A stretch of DNA of 29,255 nt. It comes from a virus. Numbering within the stretch: position 1 is the stretch's first letter; each line of letters opens with the position of its first letter. Under the pieces are notes generated by a model. That model searched no databases and was not told where the DNA came from. It was given only the letters and a program-made list of their open reading frames with translations. Below are positions 2,046 to 12,696 of this stretch, piece after piece. The position numbers and the translations under genes are program-made. Where the stretch lies: the IMG/VR virus record IMGVR_UViG_3300008448_000441, positions 1 through 29,255 of that record; one strand, 5' to 3'.

Positions 2046-4229
2046 ATGAATTACACAGATTTTTTAAAAACAAAAAAGAAATCATTTTTAGAAAGTGGTT
2101 TTGAAATTAATGAGAATGAATTAAATAGTAATTTATTTGATTTTCAAAAGTACGTAGTTAAAACAGCATTAAGTAAAGGTAGATTTGCAATATTTGCAGA
2201 TTGCGGACTTGGAAAAACACTGATGCAGTTAAGCTGGTCTGAAGCTGTATTTAATCATACAAATAAGAAAGTATTAATATTAGCACCATTGGCAGTTGTT
2301 GAGCAAACAAAAGATGAAGCTAAAAAGTTTAATATAAATCTTAATTGTTTTGATATTACTAACTATGATCAATTAAAAAACATTGAAAATATTAATCAAT
2401 ATTCTGGAGTTGTTTTAGATGAAAGTTCAATTTTAAAAGGTAGAGATGGTAAATTAAGCAGTTTAATTTTATCTACATTTAAAAACACTCCTTATAAGTT
2501 AGCATGTACTGCAACACCATCACCTAATGATCATATGGAGTTAGGGCAACATTCTGAGTTTGTTGGTGCAATGAGTTATTTAGAAATGCTCGCTATGTTC
2601 TTTGTTCATGATGGCGGAGAAACATCGAAATGGAGATTAAGAAAACATGCAAAAGATCCATTTTGGAAATATGTATGTTCATGGTCTATTGCTATTGATA
2701 AACCTGAAACATTAGGATTTAATCATTTAGGTTATGATTTACCAGAAATAGAATACATTGAACATATTATACCAGTTGATAATAATACAATGACTTTATT
2801 TAATGATGTAGCAGTTTCAGCTACTGACTTACATAAAGACTTAGATAGATCTTTTGATAAAAGAATTGAAAAAACTATTGAGCTTGTAAATTCAAATAAT
2901 AAACAGTGGATTGTTTGGGGATTAAAAAATAGTGAAACAGATAAACTTGAAAAACTTTTAAATAATTCTATTAATGTTCAAGGTAGTGATACTCCTGAAT
3001 ATAAAGCTAAATATTTAAACGGATTTGCTAAAAATGAATTTCAAACATTAATAACCAAAACAAGTATTGCATCATTTGGTATGAATTACCAACAATGTAA
3101 TCAAATGGTATTTATGAGTTATGATTTTAAATTTGAAGCATTCTATCAAGCTGTTAGGCGTTGCTATCGTTTCGGGCAAAAGAACAAAGTTCAAGTACAT
3201 ATTTTAATACCTGAATCACAAACAAATGTAAGAAAAACGATATTAGAAAAACAGGAAAGACATAAAGAAATGATTACAGAAATGGCAAAATACTCAAGCG
3301 AAGCAGATTATAAATCAAATAAATCAAAAGTTATGATAAATAAAAAAGAAATTAAAACAGAAAACTATCATTTATTAAATGGTGATTGTGTACAGGAAAG
3401 TAAAAAAATAAATGATAATTCTGCTGATTTGGTTGTATTTAGTCCGCCATTTGCTGAGTTATATGTTTATTCAGATAAAGAAGAAGATATGGGAAATGTA
3501 AGCGACTATAAGCAATTTGAACAGCATTTTAAATTTCTTATTCCTGAATTAAAAAGAATATTAAAGTCAGGTCGTATTTGTGCAGTTCATTGTATGGATT
3601 TACCAATTCAAAAAGGTAAAGAGGGATATATTGGTCTTCGTGATTTTTCAGGAATGTTAATTGATTGGTTTCAAGAATGTGGTTTTATTTATCATTCAAG
3701 AGTAACTATTTGGAAAAATCCAGTAACAGAAATGCAAAGAACAAAAGCATTAGGGTTACTACATAAAACTATAAAAAAAGATAGTTCAATGACAAGAGTA
3801 GGAATACCTGATTATGTTTTATTTTTTAGAAATGAAGGAGAAAATTTAACACCAATAAAACATCAAGATACAGATCAAAGTAATTCAAATTATTTGCCAG
3901 TTGATTTATGGCAGAAATACGCTTCTCCTGTTTGGATGGATATTGATTATTCAAGAACATTGCAATATAGATCAGGAAGAGATGGTAATGATGAAAAACA
4001 TATTTGCCCTTTACAATTAGATACTATTGAGCGCATAATTCATTTATATTCAAATGAAGGTGAAACAGTATTTAGTCCATTTGGAGGTATTGGTAGTGAG
4101 GGATTTCAGGCATTAAAAATGAATAGAAAATCAATATCAATAGAATTAAAAGAGAGTTATTTTGCTATAAATCAAAAGAATCATAAAGATTGTATTGAAG
4201 AAAAAAAATCAACATTAACATTATTTTAA
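2046..4229 (+). CDS. SNF2-like helicase fused to beta-class DNA amino-methyltransferase
   Basis: One 727-aa polypeptide with two enzymes. Residues ~30-400 are an SF2/SNF2-like ATPase: Walker A CGLGKT at 53-58, Walker B-type LDES at 124-127, motif III TATPSPN at 155-161, and motif VI QAVRRCYRFGQ at 368-378. Residues ~440-727 are an S-adenosylmethionine-dependent DNA methyltransferase: catalytic motif IV SPPF at 466-469 precedes the cofactor motif VFSPFGGIG at 675-683, the order of beta-class enzymes, with the presumed target-recognition region between. SPPF leaves N4-cytosine versus N6-adenine open. The gene is visibly AT-richer than ninG, suggesting separate acquisition. No specificity subunit or nuclease lies nearby, so protective modification is more likely than restriction. 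It ends immediately before a promoter. Confidence 0.87.
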   Translation: MNYTDFLKTKKKSFLESGFEINENELNSNLFDFQKYVVKTALSKGRFAIFADCGLGKTLMQLSWSEAVFNHTNKKVLILAPLAVVEQTKDEAKKFNINLNCFDITNYDQLKNIENINQYSGVVLDESSILKGRDGKLSSLILSTFKNTPYKLACTATPSPNDHMELGQHSEFVGAMSYLEMLAMFFVHDGGETSKWRLRKHAKDPFWKYVCSWSIAIDKPETLGFNHLGYDLPEIEYIEHIIPVDNNTMTLFNDVAVSATDLHKDLDRSFDKRIEKTIELVNSNNKQWIVWGLKNSETDKLEKLLNNSINVQGSDTPEYKAKYLNGFAKNEFQTLITKTSIASFGMNYQQCNQMVFMSYDFKFEAFYQAVRRCYRFGQKNKVQVHILIPESQTNVRKTILEKQERHKEMITEMAKYSSEADYKSNKSKVMINKKEIKTENYHLLNGDCVQESKKINDNSADLVVFSPPFAELYVYSDKEEDMGNVSDYKQFEQHFKFLIPELKRILKSGRICAVHCMDLPIQKGKEGYIGLRDFSGMLIDWFQECGFIYHSRVTIWKNPVTEMQRTKALGLLHKTIKKDSSMTRVGIPDYVLFFRNEGENLTPIKHQDTDQSNSNYLPVDLWQKYASPVWMDIDYSRTLQYRSGRDGNDEKHICPLQLDTIERIIHLYSNEGETVFSPFGGIGSEGFQALKMNRKSISIELKESYFAINQKNHKDCIEEKKSTLTLF

Positions 4230-4261
4230 TTTGTAAATTGCTATAAAAAATAGTAACTTTG
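4230..4261 (+). promoter_or_regulatory. Bacteroidota-type promoter before replication genes
   Basis: TTTG at 4230-4233, a 20-base spacer and TAACTTTG at 4254-4261 match the primary-sigma promoter pattern of Bacteroidota (-33 TTTG, -7 TAnnTTTG). It begins directly after the helicase-methyltransferase stop and would start a transcript near 4267, about 100 bases before the initiator-like gene. Confidence 0.72.
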
Positions 4262-4366
4262 TATTAAGTACTACCACCATGATAAACTCATTTACAATTT
4301 GCCCTCTTTTATTTCCGATGCCTGTGGTAGGGCTAAGAAATAATTGGGGGCTTTACTTTTAATATC
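4262..4366 (+). promoter_or_regulatory. Structured leader with competing pairings
   Basis: This ~105-base leader has three GC-rich pairings that cannot all form. CTACCAC (4271-4277) pairs with GTGGTAG (4324-4330). GCCCT (4301-4305) pairs with AGGGC (4329-4333), which overlaps the first partner. GCCCTC (4301-4306) also pairs with GGGGGC (4346-4351) with one G-U. GC blocks are rare in this AT-rich DNA. An attenuator-like or translation-control role for the initiator gene is an inference. Confidence 0.35.
4279..4362 (+). CDS. Possible 27-aa leader peptide
   Basis: An ATG about 12 bases into the predicted transcript opens a 27-codon frame ending four bases before the initiator-like ATG. The peptide is hydrophobic and rich in Pro, Phe and Leu (begins MINSFTICPLLF). 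Its reading frame spans the competing pairings of the leader, so its translation could affect their folding. It is too short to judge coding by itself; it may be chance. Confidence 0.25.
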   Translation: MINSFTICPLLFPMPVVGLRNNWGLYF

Positions 4367-5005
4367 ATGATAAAAAAATCATTCATAATACATATTGATA
4401 GTTTAGGAATATTAGATGAATTAACAGATGAACAAGCTGGACAATTATTTAAACTTATTTATGAATATCATAACCCAAATAAACCCAAACAAACCCAAAT
4501 AACCCAGTTGGTTAATTTGGCTTTTTATCCTTTTAAAAGTCAATTTGAAAGGGACAATCAGACTTATAATAATGTTTGTGAAAGAAATAAAAACAATGGT
4601 TTATTAGGTGGCAGACCTAAAAATAAAAACCCAAACAAACCCAAAAAAGCCGATAGTGATAATAAGAATAAGAATGATAATAAGAATGATAATGATAATA
4701 AAAGTGTTATTAAGAAAATAAATATAAGACCATTTGTAAATATTTTACAATCTGAATTAGATAAATTAAATTCTGAATTTTCAGAACACGAAGTTAATTG
4801 GATGCTGGATAAACTAAACGACTATAAAGCAAGTAAGGGTGTTCAATACAAGTCAGATTACCATGCTATCAATATGTGGGTAAAAGATGCTTTCAGAAAA
4901 GCAAAGGTTGATTTTATAAAAGATAACAATACTTCGGAGGTTAGGATAGCAACAGCAATGAAATCAATAGAAAATATTAACTGGGATGACTATAAATTAT
5001 TATGA
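4367..5005 (+). CDS. Replication-initiator-like protein (DUF6291-type N-terminus)
   Basis: A 212-aa protein, probably the phage replication organiser. Residues 1-75 (starting MIKKSFIIHIDSLGILDELT, with a later FYPFKSQFERDN) resemble the DUF6291 domain common in Bacteroidota phages. Residues ~80-115 are a low-complexity Asn/Lys/Asp linker. The C-terminal ~95 residues end in a helical module with YKSDYHAINMWVKDAF, similar to the C-terminal domains of phage initiators and DnaD/DnaT-like proteins. The gene carries six 10-bp-phased AACCCAAA repeats, described separately, which resemble the arrangement of the lambda O gene and its internal origin. It has its own promoter and leader and overlaps the next gene by four bases (ATGA). 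The initiator role is inferred from domain resemblance plus repeats. Confidence 0.65.
   Translation: MIKKSFIIHIDSLGILDELTDEQAGQLFKLIYEYHNPNKPKQTQITQLVNLAFYPFKSQFERDNQTYNNVCERNKNNGLLGGRPKNKNPNKPKKADSDNKNKNDNKNDNDNKSVIKKINIRPFVNILQSELDKLNSEFSEHEVNWMLDKLNDYKASKGVQYKSDYHAINMWVKDAFRKAKVDFIKDNNTSEVRIATAMKSIENINWDDYKLL
4472..4507 (+). repeat. Candidate iterons, cluster 1: AACCCAAA x3 plus partial
   Basis: Exact AACCCAAA copies start at 4472, 4482 and 4492, followed by a partial AACCCAG at 4501. The 10-bp spacing equals one DNA turn. Since 10 is not a multiple of 3, each copy falls in a different codon phase (N-P-N, K-P-K, Q-T-Q), so protein repetition does not explain it. Confidence 0.65.
4628..4645 (+). 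repeat. Candidate iterons, cluster 2: AACCCAAA x2
   Basis: Two further exact AACCCAAA copies start at 4628 and 4638, again 10 bp apart and in different codon phases. They directly precede the AT-only-like stretch beginning near 4655. Confidence 0.6.
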
Positions 5006-5859
5006 GTAACATAACGACAACAAATGGATTTTCACCTTTAGAAGTTGAAGCCATGCAGAAACTACCTGAATATCAAAGGCTGTATATTCAAGTTAAAAAT
5101 GAACAGAAGATTATCCACATGGATAAACAGGATGCATTAACTAAGTTATTTGCCTTAATAATTAATACAATTGAGTTATCAGGTGAAAACAAAAAATACA
5201 ACTTAGATAATGAACAAACCAAAAAAGTGGCTAATTTTATTTATGAAACAGTTTTAGAGCAGTATAAAGGTGCAACTATGTCTGAACTGCAAAGTGCTTT
5301 TAAAATGGGTTTATTTGGTAATTTCGGGGAGTTTGTAGGTTACGGAGTAATTACCTTTGGTAAATTCATAAAAGGTTATTTTAATTCACCACAGCGTGAT
5401 GCATCAATAAAAGCTTGGTTAAAATTTCAAAATGCTCCAGTAACAGTAAATAAACCAGTGTATAAATTCTTTGAGAAGAACATGGAAATAGCAAACTACT
5501 TTTTTAATATTTGTACTGAAAAATTAAGTGAACGATTTGATACAGTAGTTAATCATGATGACAATGTAATGCATCTACCAAGTATTTATATGTTTCTATA
5601 CGATAACTTTCAAATATCATTTTCCGATGAAAGCAAAGCAATAATAAAACAAAAGGCAAAGGAACGATACCATAAATTTATAGTTAAGTCTAAAATAAAA
5701 GAATCAGACCCGAAAGGATTTGAAACGATAGTTCAGTCAGTAATTGAAAGTAATAATTTAACTTTTGAGTGGTATCTGAAAACACAGGCTTTAATATTCT
5801 TAACTTTAAAACTAAAAGAGCAGGGAAAAACATACGATAACTTAAAACCTTTAAAATGA
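5002..5859 (+). CDS. Unknown protein paired with the initiator-like gene
   Basis: Not recognised with confidence. A 285-aa soluble, helical protein whose ATG overlaps the initiator stop (ATGA), so the two are probably made together. Residues ~90-130 contain a run rich in Gly, Phe and Tyr (GLFGNFGEFVGYG, then GKFIKGYFNSPQR) that looks like a DNA- or protein-binding helical module. No Walker A motif is visible, so a DnaC-type helicase loader is not supported. By position it could be a second replication factor. No membrane segment, zinc site or catalytic motif was seen. Confidence 0.75.
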   Translation: MSNITTTNGFSPLEVEAMQKLPEYQRLYIQVKNEQKIIHMDKQDALTKLFALIINTIELSGENKKYNLDNEQTKKVANFIYETVLEQYKGATMSELQSAFKMGLFGNFGEFVGYGVITFGKFIKGYFNSPQRDASIKAWLKFQNAPVTVNKPVYKFFEKNMEIANYFFNICTEKLSERFDTVVNHDDNVMHLPSIYMFLYDNFQISFSDESKAIIKQKAKERYHKFIVKSKIKESDPKGFETIVQSVIESNNLTFEWYLKTQALIFLTLKLKEQGKTYDNLKPLK

Positions 5860-5946
5860 TGTTATGCGTTCGCCTTTTTTTTTCGTGTTGATTTTCAGCA
5901 AGTTAGAAACTATTTTAAAAATAAATCAAAAATAATTTGAAAAAAG

Positions 5947-6806: not shown

Positions 6807-7300
6807 ATATAACCGACCTGCTTACTGACAAAAAGTATTTGCAAATAAGCAGGAACGTGTGTCGAAATCATAATTTGTTACATGATTTACATTCAGAAGC
6901 TATCTTAGTTATATTAGAGAAAAAAGTAGATATTAACACTATTAGAAACTTAGAACATTACTTTTCAACTGTTGTTTGGATGACGTGGCACTCCAACAAG
7001 TTTAAAAAAAAATACTTAAATGATTTTTTGGAGTTCTTTGAATACTACGATTATGACTTAATAGATGAAAGTATTGAACATTCAGACTTTACACCAGCTT
7101 ATAACTTTATAGATCGTGAGCCGAAAACCGATACTGAATACTATGAGATTAATTTATTCAAGTTATATTTAGAATTAGGATCTATCCAGGCAGTAAGTAG
7201 AAAAACAAAGATACCTTACCAAACAGTATTTTACGATTTAAAACAAATAAAAGAGCAAATAATAAATGATAAAACTTTTAATCAAAGCGAACCTGAGTAA
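6803..7300 (+). CDS. Sigma-70-like / HTH transcription regulator
   Basis: A 165-aa protein laid out like a small sigma-type factor. Residues ~20-60 (LLHDLHSEAILVILEK, followed by WMTW) resemble sigma region 2 helices. A variable acidic middle follows, and residues ~128-160 form a helix-turn-helix (GSIQAVSRKTKIPYQTVFYDLKQI compressed around the AVSRKTKIPYQTV turn) like region 4 or a phage regulator. It sits between the early genes and the glycan/structural genes, the usual place for a middle or late activator. The next gene starts 35 bases inside its end. Whether it binds RNA polymerase or only DNA cannot be told. Confidence 0.55.
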   Translation: MNITDLLTDKKYLQISRNVCRNHNLLHDLHSEAILVILEKKVDINTIRNLEHYFSTVVWMTWHSNKFKKKYLNDFLEFFEYYDYDLIDESIEHSDFTPAYNFIDREPKTDTEYYEINLFKLYLELGSIQAVSRKTKIPYQTVFYDLKQIKEQIINDKTFNQSEPE

Positions 7301-8309
7301 CTTAAATGGACTATCGTTTCATCGGTTATACGTTCCATTCTCAAAAATAAGCGATTTAAACGAGTTTAAATGCGATGTTTATCCTGACTTATCAGTATTG
7401 AGTGATGCTGAACTAAAAGGCTATGACGCTGTAGTTTACCAACGTGAAATTGATGTAAATGGTAACTCACTTGAATTAATTAAGAAATATCATAAGTTAG
7501 GACTAAAAGTAATTTTTGATATAGATGACATGTGGGTGCTACCTCATGACCATTACTTGTATAAAGTTTACCAACAATATAAGATAAAAGAGCAAACAGA
7601 AGAAATATTAAAAGCTGTAGACTTAGTTATTACTACCACAAAAGTAATGGCAACCAGAATAAGTAAGTTTAATAAAAAAGTTGAGGTTATTCCTAACTGT
7701 TTAGATTTAGATGATCCACAATGGCAATCAAACAAGATTAAAAGTAATTTAACACGATTTGGTTATGTGGCTGGTGTATTTCATTCAAAAGACATCGGAA
7801 TCATTCAGCAACCTATTTTAAAGGCTTATAGGCATAATTTAAACGCAGGTTTTGTTTTAGGTGGTTGGAATAACAACAAAGACTATAACTTCTATGAAAC
7901 TGTTATGAGTGGCAATAACTTCGATATGTTAAAATATAGCCGGGTAAACTCTTTGCCGGTACACGAATATGGCAAGGCTTACAATTATACCGATGTATCA
8001 TTAATACCTTTACAAAATAATATTTTCACTGAGTGCAAATCAGAAATTAAACTACTTGAAGCTGGAGCACATGGAAATCCTGCAATAGTTTCAAACGTGC
8101 TACCTTATAATATGTTTCCAAAAGAAACTGCAATATTTGTAGATAACCATGATGTAAATGGATGGTTTAAAGCAATTAGAAATTTAAGCAAAGACAAAGT
8201 ATTATTTGATGAAAAAAGCAAAGCACTAACTGAATATACAAAAGAAAATTATAATATAAACATATGGAGCGAAATCAGAAAACAAATTATAAAATCGGCA
8301 TTGGTGTAA
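7266..8309 (+). CDS. GT-B fold glycosyltransferase (family 4-like)
   Basis: A 347-aa soluble glycosyltransferase, likely transferring a sugar from a nucleotide-sugar donor. The N-terminal Rossmann half includes LNGLSFHRLYVPF and FDIDDMWVLP. A linker has VITTTKVMATRI and VEVIPNCLD, the usual boundary before the donor-binding half. The C-terminal half has CKSEIKLLEAGAHGNPAIVS, which contains the conserved acidic residues of GT4-type donor sites. No membrane segment. The ATG lies 35 bases inside the regulator gene and the end overlaps the next glycosyltransferase by 46 bases, so this is the first gene of the coupled cassette. Sugar and acceptor unknown. Confidence 0.8.
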   Translation: MIKLLIKANLSNLNGLSFHRLYVPFSKISDLNEFKCDVYPDLSVLSDAELKGYDAVVYQREIDVNGNSLELIKKYHKLGLKVIFDIDDMWVLPHDHYLYKVYQQYKIKEQTEEILKAVDLVITTTKVMATRISKFNKKVEVIPNCLDLDDPQWQSNKIKSNLTRFGYVAGVFHSKDIGIIQQPILKAYRHNLNAGFVLGGWNNNKDYNFYETVMSGNNFDMLKYSRVNSLPVHEYGKAYNYTDVSLIPLQNNIFTECKSEIKLLEAGAHGNPAIVSNVLPYNMFPKETAIFVDNHDVNGWFKAIRNLSKDKVLFDEKSKALTEYTKENYNINIWSEIRKQIIKSALV

Positions 8310-8902
8310 CAACAACACCAAACAGATCAGAATACATTGATACCTGGAGGAAAAACTTTGAAAAGGTTAAGCCTAAACAATATCATTTACACATTCATGA
8401 AGATGTAAGTTATAAAGGAGTTGCTTATTCAAAGAATCAAAATCTTAAAACTTTGAAAGATTGCGATTACATTTTTCTTTTTGACGATGACTGTTACCCG
8501 GTAAAAGAGGGGTGGGCGGAATACTTTATTAATTCAAACGAACAACATTTACTATTTTTAAATGATACTCATAAAGTATTGGCACGAACAGGAAACGTAG
8601 AACACTATAATGATTGCGGTGGAGTGTTTATGTTTCTTACAAGTGAAGTATTAAGCAAAGTTGGTGCATTTGATGAAAGTTATGGTAAATATGCTTTTGA
8701 ACATGTTGATTATTCTAATAGAATATTAGGAAAAAAGAATAATTATCCAATGTTAAAAGATACAAATAAATATTTAAAAGCATTAGATTATGAGGGCTAT
8801 AATAAGTCATCTATAAGTGATAAAGATAAGGAATATTGGATTAAAAAAAATTGGAATAAATACTTTAATGAAGATATTAAATCTGTATATTTGCCATTAT
8901 GA
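8264..8902 (+). CDS. GT-A fold glycosyltransferase (family 2-like)
   Basis: A 212-aa enzyme with the GT-A plan: N-terminal IGIGVTTTPNRSEY beta-strand and loop, nucleotide-sugar/metal motif FLFDDDCYP near residue 75, and GGVFMFLTSEVL with GAFDESYGKYAFEHVDY in the acceptor/catalytic half, as in family 2 enzymes. The start is the first ATG in frame and overlaps the preceding gene by 46 bases. Base composition becomes more AT-rich after about 8640, and this continues into the HNH gene. It ends in an ATGA overlap with that gene. Substrates unknown. Confidence 0.8.
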   Translation: MERNQKTNYKIGIGVTTTPNRSEYIDTWRKNFEKVKPKQYHLHIHEDVSYKGVAYSKNQNLKTLKDCDYIFLFDDDCYPVKEGWAEYFINSNEQHLLFLNDTHKVLARTGNVEHYNDCGGVFMFLTSEVLSKVGAFDESYGKYAFEHVDYSNRILGKKNNYPMLKDTNKYLKALDYEGYNKSSISDKDKEYWIKKNWNKYFNEDIKSVYLPL

Positions 8903-9474
8903 AGTTATGTAATACATGTAAATTAACTAAAGATTATTCATCTTTTTATAAACGTGGAAAAAACTCATATCAACATAAATGTATTGATTGTGAAAAAGAA
9001 TATAAAATACTTAATAAACAAAGAATAGCCGATTATAAAAATAAACATTATAATTTAAATAAAGAAAAATATTTTGAAAGATCAAAAGAAAGTAAAAAAA
9101 GAAATCATAAAGATTGGTATAGAAAATATTATACTGCTCACCCTGAAAAAAGAATAGTTCTTAATATGAGAAGACGAATTTCAAGTGTTTTAAAAGGAGA
9201 AATAAAAAACGATACAACAATAAATTTATTAGGTTGTAATGTTGAAACTTTAAAAAAACATTTACAATTTAAGTTTACAAAAGGAATGAAATGGAGTAAT
9301 TATGGGACGTGGCATGTTGACCATATAATACCATGTGCTAAATTTGATTTAACAAAAATAGAAAATCAAAAAATATGTTTTCATTATACAAACTTGCAAC
9401 CATTATGGGCAAAAGATAATTGTAGTAAACAACACAAATTAACTGAAAGCGTACAAATGAATATTATAATATAA
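8899..9474 (+). CDS. HNH homing-type endonuclease
   Basis: A 191-aa protein with an N-terminal zinc ribbon (CNTC at 4-7, CIDC at ~28-31), a highly basic helical middle, and a C-terminal HNH nuclease core with WHVDHIIPCAKFDL and FHYTNLQPLWAKDN. This is the build of free-standing phage HNH endonucleases that spread by cutting unoccupied alleles. It interrupts a run of glycosyltransferase genes yet fits with a 4-base overlap on the left and a 1-base TAATG overlap on the right. Composition is visibly AT-richer than most of the cassette, consistent with later arrival. A role in glycan synthesis is not expected. Confidence 0.85.
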   Translation: MKLCNTCKLTKDYSSFYKRGKNSYQHKCIDCEKEYKILNKQRIADYKNKHYNLNKEKYFERSKESKKRNHKDWYRKYYTAHPEKRIVLNMRRRISSVLKGEIKNDTTINLLGCNVETLKKHLQFKFTKGMKWSNYGTWHVDHIIPCAKFDLTKIENQKICFHYTNLQPLWAKDNCSKQHKLTESVQMNIII

Positions 9475-10166
9475 TGAAAATACTTTTTAAGTTAGCAACA
9501 CGTTCAAGACCTGAAAAAGCACGTGCAAGTATTAACAACATTATAAGTAATTGTAATTCAAACCAATATCAAATATTAGTTTCAGTTGATAAAGACGATG
9601 AAACTATGCAAGGCTTTGACCATGAGCATGATTCAGTATTTATGGTTGAGGGTACTTCAAAAAATAAAATAGATGCTATAAATCGTGACATTGAACTTAT
9701 TGACGATTGGGATATTTTAATCAATACTTCCGATGACATGATTTTTTTACATCGTGGATTTGATACAATTATTCGACAAGACTTTAAAAGGCATTTGGAC
9801 CAGGTCCTACATTACTCAGATGGGAATCAACATTCTAACATTATGACAATGAGTATAATGGGTAGAGCCTATTATGAAAGGTTTGGATATATTTATCATC
9901 CTGACTATAAATCACTTTGGTGTGATTGTGAAGCCACAGAAGTTGCATGGTTAATGAATAAGTATGAATACATGGGTGACTTAAAGGTATTATTTAGGCA
10001 CATGCATCCTGCTTGGGGATTGGCTGAATACGATGAACAATATCGAAAAACAGAAAGCCAGGAACTTTGGGATAATGATTACCGAATATTTAAAGAACGT
10101 AAAGCGAGAAATTATGATATACCAGACCATTTAATAATTAACCCACCTAAATACTACAATGTATAG
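9474..10166 (+). CDS. GT-A-like glycosyltransferase
   Basis: A 230-aa protein with a family 2-type N-terminus (KILFKLATRSRPEKARASI), a sugar-nucleotide region with VSVDKDDETM, and an acidic NTSDDMIFLHRGFD motif near residue 90 standing where GT-A enzymes have DxD. Later WCDCEATEVAW and FRHMHPAWG could form the acceptor site. No membrane helix. The ATG overlaps the HNH stop by one base and the end overlaps the FkbM gene by eight. More divergent than the neighbouring enzymes, so the fold call is firmer than the activity. Confidence 0.68.
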   Translation: MKILFKLATRSRPEKARASINNIISNCNSNQYQILVSVDKDDETMQGFDHEHDSVFMVEGTSKNKIDAINRDIELIDDWDILINTSDDMIFLHRGFDTIIRQDFKRHLDQVLHYSDGNQHSNIMTMSIMGRAYYERFGYIYHPDYKSLWCDCEATEVAWLMNKYEYMGDLKVLFRHMHPAWGLAEYDEQYRKTESQELWDNDYRIFKERKARNYDIPDHLIINPPKYYNV

Positions 10167-10758
10167 TCAAAACAATGAAGAGCAAGTAATATTAGATTAC
10201 TTTGGAAATAAGATAGGTAATTTACTTGACATCGGAGCAAACGATGGGATTACTTTATCAAATAGCAGAAAGTTAATTGAATTGGGATGGGGTGGGGATT
10301 TAATAGAACCATCACCTACTGCCTTTGCAAAACTTAAAAAGTTATATTCAAGAAAGAAAAAAGTAAATACTCACAATATTGCATTATGTGATGTTAGTGG
10401 TAAAATGAAATTTTATGAAAGTGGAACTCATTTAAATAATGGAGATACTGATTTATTATCTACTTTATCATTAACAGATAAACAGAAATGGGAATCAACA
10501 ACTGAGTATACAGAAACAGAAGTAAATGCATTAACCTGGAATGATTTTCAAACAGGTAAACTTTATGACTTTATAAATATAGATGCTGAAGGTTATGATC
10601 TAATAATTTTAAAGCAATTAGATTTATTTGACTTAGGATGTTCATGCCTATGTATTGAACACAATGGCAAAATACTTAATCAGATATTAGAAGAAGTTAA
10701 AAAGTATAATATGAGAATAATATCTCAGAATTTGGAAAATGTAATTTTGGCAATATGA
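10159..10758 (+). CDS. FkbM-family methyltransferase (first of two)
   Basis: A 199-aa S-adenosylmethionine-dependent methyltransferase of the FkbM type, a family that commonly O-methylates sugars of glycans. The cofactor loop LLDIGANDGITLSNS is at ~18-32, then LIEPSPTAFAKL with the acidic ribose-binding Glu, and the FkbM signature DFINIDAEGYD at ~140-150. It overlaps its neighbours by eight and four bases. It sits beside a second, sequence-distinct FkbM gene, so the two probably methylate different positions or sugars. Substrate inferred from context only. Confidence 0.82.
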   Translation: MYSQNNEEQVILDYFGNKIGNLLDIGANDGITLSNSRKLIELGWGGDLIEPSPTAFAKLKKLYSRKKKVNTHNIALCDVSGKMKFYESGTHLNNGDTDLLSTLSLTDKQKWESTTEYTETEVNALTWNDFQTGKLYDFINIDAEGYDLIILKQLDLFDLGCSCLCIEHNGKILNQILEEVKKYNMRIISQNLENVILAI

Positions 10759-11417
10759 AAGATATTTTTAAATACATTGAAGATATTATAAATTCAAAAG
10801 ATAAATTATTAATATTTGAATTTGGAATGTGTGATGCACATCATTCATATAAAATCATGGATTTAATTCAAAGTAATAAAACTTTTGAATATTATGGATT
10901 TGAGCCTGTAGATTATTTATTTAATCAAATCAAAGATTATAAAAAAGATTATCAAAATGGTTCGTTCACTATTGTAAATAAAGCAATAGGAGATAAAGAT
11001 GGATTCGTTGATTTTTACCAAAGTGGTGGACAAAAAATAGTTGATGGGATAAACACAGAAAATTATTATGGCAGTTCATCAATCAATGAACCTAAAGAAG
11101 TTTTAACATATTGGCCAGAAATGACTTTTGAGAAAAAACAAATTGAATCTATAAAGTTTGATACTTATGTAAAAGAAAATAATTTAAATGATAGAGTAAT
11201 TGATTTTATTTGGGCAGACATTCAAGGTGCTGAGATTAATTTAATCAAAGGAGGTAAAAATACTTTTAAAAATGTAAAATATTTTTATACTGAATATTCA
11301 AATGGTAATTTATACAAAGGAGATAAAGGGTTAAAAGGTATTTTAAAGCTATTGCCTAATTTTGAAATAGAATGTGATTATCAAGGTGATGTACTTCTAA
11401 AAAATAAATATTTATGA
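10755..11417 (+). CDS. FkbM-family methyltransferase (second of two)
   Basis: A 220-aa protein with the FkbM layout but little direct similarity to its neighbour. A cofactor-binding strand LLIFEFGMCDAHHSY lacks the full GxGxG loop. It is followed by YYGFEPVDYLF and the signature DFIWADIQGAEINLIKGG near residue 155. The atypical loop (GMCDAHHS) may alter cofactor binding. Start and stop each overlap the adjacent genes by four bases (ATGA), so it is embedded in the coupled cassette. Probably methylates a glycan; inactive or altered chemistry is possible. Confidence 0.72.
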   Translation: MKDIFKYIEDIINSKDKLLIFEFGMCDAHHSYKIMDLIQSNKTFEYYGFEPVDYLFNQIKDYKKDYQNGSFTIVNKAIGDKDGFVDFYQSGGQKIVDGINTENYYGSSSINEPKEVLTYWPEMTFEKKQIESIKFDTYVKENNLNDRVIDFIWADIQGAEINLIKGGKNTFKNVKYFYTEYSNGNLYKGDKGLKGILKLLPNFEIECDYQGDVLLKNKYL

Positions 11418-11995
11418 TTTTATCAATACTTATTCCAACAGTTCCACAAAGAGCAAGACTTTATTTAGAACTAATCACAGAACTAAATAATCAAATAGAA
11501 ATGGCTAATGCCTTTGGACTTGTTGAAGTTATTACAGATGATGCACCGGTAGGAGCAAAAACAACAGGGCAAAAGAGAAACGATTTAATTAATTCAGCAC
11601 AGGGTAAGTATGTTTGGTTTATTGATGATGATGATATGATAATGCCGAATGCTATTAATAACATACTGCCTGCATTAGAACTTAATCCAGATGCTTTGGC
11701 TATCAATGGAATAATGACTACAGATGGCAATAATATGAAACAATGGTATATCAGTAAAGACTTTGAATATAGAGCAGACTTTACAAAAGGATTTGAAATA
11801 TACATAAGGCCGACAAACCACATAACACCGGTTAAAAGAGAAATAGCAAAACAAGTTAAATTTAAGAATCAATCTAACTTTGAAGATTATGAGTATTGCA
11901 TGGAACTTAAAAACTTAGGATTGGTTAAAACAGAAGTAGAAATAAAAGAAGCTGTTTATCATTACAGATATATTTCAACTAATAAATTATATTAA
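11414..11995 (+). CDS. GT-A fold glycosyltransferase (family 2)
   Basis: A 193-aa compact family 2 enzyme. It starts with ILSILIPTVPQRARLY, the typical first strand, and has the donor/metal motif VWFIDDDDMIMP near residue 72. The C-terminal FEDYEYCMELKNLG provides the acidic ED pair often seen as the catalytic base region. No membrane helix, unlike lipid-linked glycan enzymes. The start overlaps the FkbM stop (ATGA) and the end overlaps the next gene by one base (TAATG). Two antisense frames here are shadows. Confidence 0.83.
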   Translation: MILSILIPTVPQRARLYLELITELNNQIEMANAFGLVEVITDDAPVGAKTTGQKRNDLINSAQGKYVWFIDDDDMIMPNAINNILPALELNPDALAINGIMTTDGNNMKQWYISKDFEYRADFTKGFEIYIRPTNHITPVKREIAKQVKFKNQSNFEDYEYCMELKNLGLVKTEVEIKEAVYHYRYISTNKLY

Positions 11996-12696
11996 TGAAA
12001 GTAGCCTTTTGCACATACGCAAGTAAATGTTATAAGTATTCTTACGCAGATGCTGATCGTTATTTTCATTATGCAGATAGATTAAAAGAATCATTAAAAG
12101 GTGTTGACTTTTATTTATTTACTGAAAATAACCTTAAACACCCGGGACATGCAAACTTACCTTATTCATTTAAACCTTATGCTATTCAGCAACTTAGGAA
12201 AGATTATGACATAGTAGTGTGGGCAGATAGTTGTGTTTATTCAATAAAAGACTTAAACAAGTTTATTGAATACATAAATATAAATGGATTTGTATTTTTT
12301 GATAATATTGGATACACTATTGGTGATTTTACTTCTGATCAATGCCTAACTAATTTTAACATGGATAGAAAAGAATCCTTTGAACACCCTATGATAATGG
12401 CTTGCTTAATGGGATTTAACTTTAAGAATCATTTAGCTACAAAACTATTCAATGAATATTTTAAAGCTACTCAAACCTATGGAAATTATGAGGGTGACTG
12501 GACTAATGAATCAAATCAAGTTAGTAAAGATAACAGAGTAAAAGGTCACCGACATGATCAATCAGTCATGAGTATTATTTTAGCAAAAGAGAAAATAAAA
12601 CCTTTGCACCCACATTCTACATTCTTTGCCTACTTTGGTAATCCAGGTCATTTACCTCATGCAGAATCAGTTTGTTTACTTAGTCAAGGATATTAA
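11995..12696 (+). CDS. Probable glycosyltransferase
   Basis: A 233-aa protein with a GT-A-like plan: KVAFCTYASKCYKYSYADADRYF at the start, FKPYAIQQLRKDYDIVVWADS with an acidic DIVVWADS motif standing in for DxD, and GHRHDQSVMSIIL near the end, a His-Asp-Gln motif also seen in several glycosyltransferase groups. Cys and aromatic residues are frequent. It is the last enzyme of the cassette, joined by single-base TAATG overlaps on both sides. The enzyme class is inferred from these motifs and context. Confidence 0.62.
   Translation: MKVAFCTYASKCYKYSYADADRYFHYADRLKESLKGVDFYLFTENNLKHPGHANLPYSFKPYAIQQLRKDYDIVVWADSCVYSIKDLNKFIEYININGFVFFDNIGYTIGDFTSDQCLTNFNMDRKESFEHPMIMACLMGFNFKNHLATKLFNEYFKATQTYGNYEGDWTNESNQVSKDNRVKGHRHDQSVMSIILAKEKIKPLHPHSTFFAYFGNPGHLPHAESVCLLSQGY

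Follow-up and report, generated by a model that had tools for sequence, protein, structure and literature searches.

Iteron plasmids, with initiators such as RepA, RepE and TrfA, carry direct repeats in helical phase beside an AT-rich region, and their iterons are approximately 17-22 bp in length and lie outside the rep gene. In lambdoid phages, origins inside initiator genes are already known, and two iterons with the AT tract make up the minimal unwinding unit of phage lambda (PMC7466680). As shown in Table 1, a similar arrangement was found in the whole 29,255-bp stretch of viral DNA analyzed here (the contig). As in the lambda O/ori-lambda/P locus, iterons lie in the middle of a putative initiator gene and are followed by an AT-rich tract, and the two linker iterons with this tract (4628-4740) match the lambda minimal unit. 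In lambda, the C-terminal half of O and the product of the next gene, P, which overlaps O by 4 bp, handle the helicase; the contig has a candidate partner gene next to the initiator with the same 4-bp overlap. In contrast, lambda has 18-bp iterons at a spacing of 20-24 bp, while the contig has a core of 5-6 bp at 9-10 bp; the contig phage has a second cluster within the N-terminal domain; and no sequence similarity of its initiator to O was found, and it is not filed as an O homologue. Helically phased direct repeats next to an AT-rich region are a likeness to iteron plasmids too, whereas the contig initiator has no Pfam match to a winged-helix Rep domain and its model is helical, without a PDB match. 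The features of the lambda-type architecture found here are iterons in a coding sequence conserved as DNA, an adjacent AT tract and co-exchange of the N-domain with the iterons.

The gene at 4367-5005 very probably (about 0.86) encodes a lambda O-like phage replication initiator and contains the phage origin within itself. The initial annotation had already proposed such a gene with an internal candidate origin in a lambda-like layout, and this is supported by the repeats of homologues, the gene context, the 4-bp overlap and the AT tract. The sequence itself has a DNA-level phased array, its location in the gene, the AT tract, a cassette exchange involving the N-domain and a context of replication genes. 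The origin reading is further supported by the phased selection, the motif scan and the PHROG matches described below.

Table 1. Features of the candidate origin locus in the contig.
Feature	Position	Strand	Basis or remark
Bacteroidota-type promoter-like site TTTG-N20-TAACTTTG	4230..4261	+	Upstream of initiator gene; putative function
Exchangeable cassette: 5′ leader, N-domain, both iteron clusters, AT tract	4264..4734	+	Comparison with L015
Putative replication initiator gene, 212 aa: DUF6291 N-domain, linker, replisome-organizer-like C-domain	4367..5005	+	PF19808, phrog_13246
DUF6291 domain with terminal basic tail NKNNGLLGGRPK	4379..4621	+	Pfam match; AlphaFold model
Iteron cluster 1: AACCCAAA x3 at 4472, 4482, 4492, 10-bp spacing	4472..4499	+	N-domain loop
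Fourth, variant iteron and inverted element AACCCAGTTGGTTAATTTGG	4501..4520	+	Counterpart of the ACCCAGTGGGTT element of homologues
Iteron cluster 2: AACCCAAA x2 at 4628, 4638	4628..4645	+	Directly after GGRPK codons
AT-rich tract with GATAnT/AATAAG repeats, candidate DNA-unwinding element	4646..4740	+	20% GC, duplex stability
Next gene, 4-bp overlap with the initiator; candidate helicase loader or partner	5002..5859	+	Conserved behind all N-domain classes

The PF19808 (DUF6291) match of the protein has an E-value of 1.6e-19 and 70.3 bits against the Pfam curated cut-off of 27.2, and residues 84-190 match the replisome organizer family phrog_13246 (E = 2e-14). DUF6291 is annotated as a family of unknown function; a literature search, limited in reach, gave no mention of the family, and no binding or replication data for it were found. 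The contig initiator has no O-like PHROG or Pfam match, and some aligned relatives match PHROGs for O-like replication initiation (678, 345, 18020), replisome organizer and primosomal protein. Sequence and fold searches of the initiator against solved structures gave nothing significant, and no known DNA-binding fold was matched. An AlphaFold model of low global confidence (pTM 0.37) has an N-domain of three helices, the last of which (residues 47-79) runs into the basic tail, followed by a disordered linker (residues 92-114) and a separate C-domain. This predicted layout is consistent with the mechanism proposed below.

The exact count bears out the five copies of AACCCAAA that had been noted in the gene: seven exact copies exist across the whole contig and five of them lie inside the gene. 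Whole-contig shuffles gave a mean of 1.57 copies and none of the 100 shuffles reached seven, and the Poisson probability of at least five copies in the 639 bp of the gene is about 4e-10. The reported 10-bp spacing stands for the exact copies of both clusters but not for the partial copy at 4501 (AACCCAG), which begins 9 bp after the copy at 4492. It was also correct that each copy within a cluster is read in a different codon phase, 0, 1 and 2 in cluster 1 and 0 and 1 in cluster 2; across the three phases, the copies are translated as N-P-K, K-P-K and T-Q. The further claim that DNA rather than protein is conserved agrees with a count of 25 repeated 8-mer pairs in the gene versus 1.6 expected when synonymous codons were shuffled with the protein fixed (0 of 300 shuffles). 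The split array, with three to four iterons and AACCCAGTTGGTTAATTTGG in the N-domain loop and two iterons in the linker, is a peculiarity of the phage type of the contig. Cluster 1, situated in the N-terminal domain and separated by about 120 bp from the AT tract downstream, is retained in relatives of the same type, and the ACCCAGTGGGTT element is found in the linker of 20 of the 28 GGRP-type homologues.

Are such phased repeats common in DUF6291 genes? DUF6291 genes were collected from IMG/VR with an N-domain-only alignment, the linker being disregarded, and together with homologues from phage databases they gave 68 non-redundant genes. Sampling of Bacteroidota genomes for PF19808 and PF14297 gave few extra loci. 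Against synonymous resampling, the linker DNA of the 68 genes repeats itself at lag 10, with a z-score of 17 for the GGRP, 23 for the GGKxK and 14 for the KR[WYH] tail class; repeats exist also at lags 9, 19-20, 29-30 and 39-40, and hardly elsewhere. The repeat score that 74% of DUF6291 linkers reached was attained by 0.9% of the coding segments taken from these loci as controls, and the procedure, applied to lambda as a positive control, recovered its known iterons (lags 20, 23 and 24). The core differs by lineage and tail class, being ACCCA, AGCAA (up to eight copies at 10-bp spacing) or ACCA. Pairs of the ACCCA type were found 41 times in linkers (plus two inverted) and 16 times in N-domains, and neither the C-domains nor 126 kb of flank contained any; pairs of the AGCAA type were found 76 times in linkers and twice in 103 kb of flank. 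The initial annotation had named loss of the phased repeats in homologues as the outcome that would speak against it; instead, the repeats persist as the protein diverges, the ACCCA cores of close homologues being kept while spacer bases change, amino-acid changes included. Phages of Vibrio, Shewanella, Pseudoalteromonas and Aeromonas, whose homologues have N-domains about 50-57% identical and unrelated C-terminal halves, also retain ACCCA repeats at helical spacing. At the DNA level, the 10-bp periodicity of the 68 genes is overwhelming, and it points to helix-phased selection.

An alternative at the protein level would be that the NPK/KPK-rich, low-complexity linker serves charge, flexibility or non-specific DNA binding and that codon bias or in-frame tandem duplication produced the DNA repeats as a side effect. 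The linker is indeed of low complexity and disordered in the model, and some homologues have in-frame 9-bp repeats. However, the copies stand in all three codon phases, lags 10 and 20 deviate from the synonymous nulls with z-scores of 5-23 in DUF6291 linkers, and cluster 1 lies in the folded N-domain. In-frame duplication cannot yield lags 10 and 20, which therefore counts against this explanation. Moreover, synonymous changes are fewer in iteron codons than in other codons of the contig and six relatives (11/108 vs 79/405, p = 0.02, with four mis-trimmed sequences left out). An in-frame control with three copies in IMG/VR gave six matches at 9 bp versus 14 at 10 bp, a comparison that separates the two readings weakly because three of the six matches are also in GG[RA]P proteins. 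A protein-level repeat was rejected on the codon phases and the synonymous nulls and is very improbable.

It was also considered whether the DNA acts through its shape rather than as sequence-specific iterons. The minus strand of cluster 1 (4472-4507) reads GGG-N6-GGG-N7-GGG-N7-GGG, four tracts that may form a G-quadruplex, and A-tracts phased at 10 bp could cause intrinsic curvature. Against this, AGCAA and ACCA arrays of homologous genes have the same 10-bp phasing without GGG tracts, and one GGG of cluster 1 is lost in a relative (L010). The G-quadruplex element was rejected since its four tracts are not conserved in homologues; curvature contributes perhaps, but it leaves the lineage-specific cores unexplained. 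A functional quadruplex or curvature in place of iterons is extremely improbable.

Another line of evidence comes from a related phage (L015) that is 98.5% identical to the contig over 2504-4263, has no similarity over 4264-4734 and is 86.7% identical over 4735-5866. Similarity breaks off just past the promoter-like site, whose TAACTTTG is kept in L015, and resumes at the end of the AT tract. The replacement cassette has another N-domain and other repeats (ACCCCCT/AGGGGGT-like). Two more relatives (L013 and L014) are 95.9% identical to the contig over 4732-5866 with an unrelated N-terminal half, a replacement of the same type as in L015, and further N-domain classes stand on related C-domains with GCGAACGCTAA or GCGAACGCATT repeats at about 11 bp. 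Since the swaps bring in a new N-domain together with new repeats, the N-domain and the iterons are inherited as a cognate unit; since related C-domains have different N-domains and repeats, the C-domain does not set the iteron type. These natural chimeras make the evolution of iteron specificity cheaply testable, because the contig and L015 differ mainly in the N-domain-iteron cassette.

Co-inheritance in a cassette and DNA-level phasing would also result if the DUF6291 protein bound its own coding sequence as an operator for autogenous control, repressing or timing the replication operon from a cognate site, with the origin elsewhere. A distance of about 210 bp separates the promoter-like site from cluster 1 downstream; the site is one of eight matches of its type on both strands of the contig. 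However, the array is located in the middle of the gene, not at the promoter, and adjoins a tract that is among the least stable of the contig; no array pairs were found upstream of the gene in ACCCA-type loci; and the neighbors in relatives are helicase, loader and primase genes. An operator in place of an origin is thus improbable, and the two roles are not exclusive, as the lambda O iterons also lie in a transcribed region.

The initial annotation had a long AT-rich tract following the repeats. The tract is real, and it adjoins cluster 2 but not cluster 1. Among 100-bp segments of the contig, the one at this tract ranks second lowest in duplex stability, and 0.02% of positions are less stable. 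In other DUF6291 genes (e.g., L205, L210 and L211), the arrays continue into (GATAnT)n hexanucleotide repeats, which encode runs of SD, DN or DT and are usually joined by GCCGAT; these repeats 3′ of the iterons are possibly a conserved unwinding element. An origin with DnaA boxes was rejected, as conserved boxes were not found next to the AT tract. The sole perfect box, TTATCCACA at 5111-5119, lies in the gene downstream of the initiator and is absent from most relatives, including L015; it is probably not a conserved part of an origin, because it is shared by close relatives only (three of the 12 checked). The cumulative GC skew, a check that had been suggested, has no extremum near 4.5 kb, which on a linear contig fragment is uninformative, neither for nor against an origin. 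An Rfam search gave no match.

The gene neighborhood was compared in the contig and its relatives. Upstream of the initiator lie genes for ERF, NinG, YqaJ exonuclease and a fusion of a helicase to a methylase. Neither Pfam nor PHROG assigns the downstream gene, and searches of its product against solved structures, by sequence and by fold, gave no significant PDB match and no recognizable loader fold. In cultured phages, the gene after the DUF6291 gene encodes replication protein P (L208), a DnaB-like helicase (L210 and L211), a COG1484 DnaC-like protein (L214) or a primase-helicase (L215). The gene that follows DUF6291 in bacterial genomes encodes, as read from its translation, a DnaC-like AAA+ protein; a DnaC-like protein also comes next in L299. 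This context bears on another explanation, that a site of some other type, for packaging, partition or recombination, lies in this gene by chance. Plasmid partition sites also contain phased iterons. However, the gene in the contig is surrounded by genes for replication and recombination, none of those next to it encoding a terminase or ParA/ParB, and the relatives adjoin helicase, loader and primase genes; such a chance location is highly improbable.

Under the origin reading, initiator protomers would use the DUF6291 N-domain with its basic tail to bind the AACCCAAA iterons. With one iteron per turn, the clusters at 4472-4507 and 4628-4645 would present them on a single face of the helix, and the resulting nucleoprotein complex may strain and open the adjoining AT-rich tract. 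The C-domain with the product of the downstream gene, or the host machinery, would then bring in the replicative helicase. I infer binding, unwinding, helicase loading and origin activity from the phage lambda O-ori-P system. I counted against the origin reading the split array, in which about 120 bp separate cluster 1 from the AT tract, the downstream gene without a recognizable loader fold, the lack of a skew extremum, the low-confidence model and the five of 28 GGRP-type genes in which a strict ACCCA pair at helical spacing is absent. What is new is a candidate origin architecture for DUF6291, in which iterons spaced by one turn occupy a shared position but vary in sequence, and an association of tail and iteron type that extends over separate N-domain families. 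This gives a candidate function to DUF6291, a family present in phages of Bacteroidota, Vibrio, Shewanella, Aeromonas and others, and the arrangement of one-turn repeats with a melting tract recurs with different sequences across many unrelated phages. Low-complexity linkers of initiators may be readable as origins, so that sequence alone could suffice to locate an origin in many metagenomic phages.

What determines the iteron type? In DUF6291, 23 of the 28 genes with a GGRP tail have an ACCCA array, versus none of the 41 without it, and all 19 genes with a GGxK tail have an AGCAA array, versus two of the 50 without such a tail. DUF1376 proteins, a separate N-domain family by Pfam, were fetched by the N-domain only; ACCCA arrays were found in nine of nine with GGRP and in none of 16 without it. 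The p-values of these associations overstate independence because the counts ignore the relatedness of the sequences, and the recurrence of the GGRP-ACCCA pairing in two separate families is a stronger argument than the p-values. The association of GGRPK with ACCCA in DUF6291 and in the unrelated DUF1376 suggests a portable tail-iteron pairing. A weak similarity (E = 0.002) was found between the tail of one DUF1376 protein and the last part of the DUF6291 profile.

DUF1376 and Lin1244_N phage initiators resemble the contig initiator in having helix-phased DNA repeats after the N-domain, some DUF1376 members having GGRPK with ACCCA. In contrast, their N-domains are separate in Pfam, and other members use the 7-bp AACCANN or the 10/11-bp GCGAACGCATT. 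In DUF1376 proteins without GGRP(K) (L370-L399), an AACCANN array read as NQEPLTxNQEPLT begins after residue ~85 (z of 18 at lag 7 and 20 at lag 14 versus the synonymous null), and 11-bp CGTGAACGAAG repeats are present as well (z of 12 at lag 11). The 7-bp array is a candidate for hidden iterons of another spacing class. Lin1244_N proteins with ANKRW tails (L410-L435) have GCGAACGCATT repeats (z of 15 at lag 10 and 10 at lag 11) in an N-domain loop (residues 40-60) and behind the tail (after residue ~105), a split layout as in the contig initiator.

Tentatively, and with somewhat less than an even chance, the short basic tail rather than the fold of the N-domain may be a portable iteron reader, with GGRPK for ACCCA, GGKxK for AGCAA and the KRW type perhaps for GCGAACG-like repeats. 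Such a tail could be combined with any N-domain (DUF6291, DUF1376 or Lin1244_N) and would travel between phage initiators together with the one-turn iterons. Linkage of neighboring DNA could explain part of the pattern from which I infer tail recognition. If the idea is true, the NPK/ETQ/KPK and ANASK linkers of many phage proteins are hidden origins.

An unbiased motif scan of IMG/VR for three phased copies gave 11 distinct matches, 10 of which lie in DUF6291 or other replication-protein-like ORFs. With two phased AACCCAAA copies, a GG[RA]P-containing ORF was found in 42 of 103 distinct matches, among the matches listed, and many of the remaining listed ones are one repeated Neisseria-like replication protein. 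Neisseria-like prophage HTH replication proteins (L047, L191 and similar) depart from the tail-iteron association, as they have two to three phased AACCCAAA copies and no GGRPK. Three phased copies in bacterial genome contigs matched non-coding tandem arrays too, so the phased AACCCAAA motif alone is not diagnostic. Long AACCCAAANN tandem arrays without a clear ORF were seen in bacterial contigs (L166-L187, e.g., L170, L184 and L186) of Deltaproteobacteria, Bacteroidales and Planktothricoides.

Two other regions of the contig were noted. The ORF at 2046-4229 is a fusion of a SNF2/DEAD-like helicase half (phrog_16, DNA helicase) to an N6/N4 DNA methylase half (phrog_67, DNA methyltransferase), and it is 98.5% conserved in L015 beside the swapped initiator cassette. 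Between the replication and packaging genes (7266-12696), reading of the translations revealed about eight ORFs resembling glycosyltransferases, HNH proteins and FkbM methyltransferases, which by this reading are an unusual cargo for a phage of this size.
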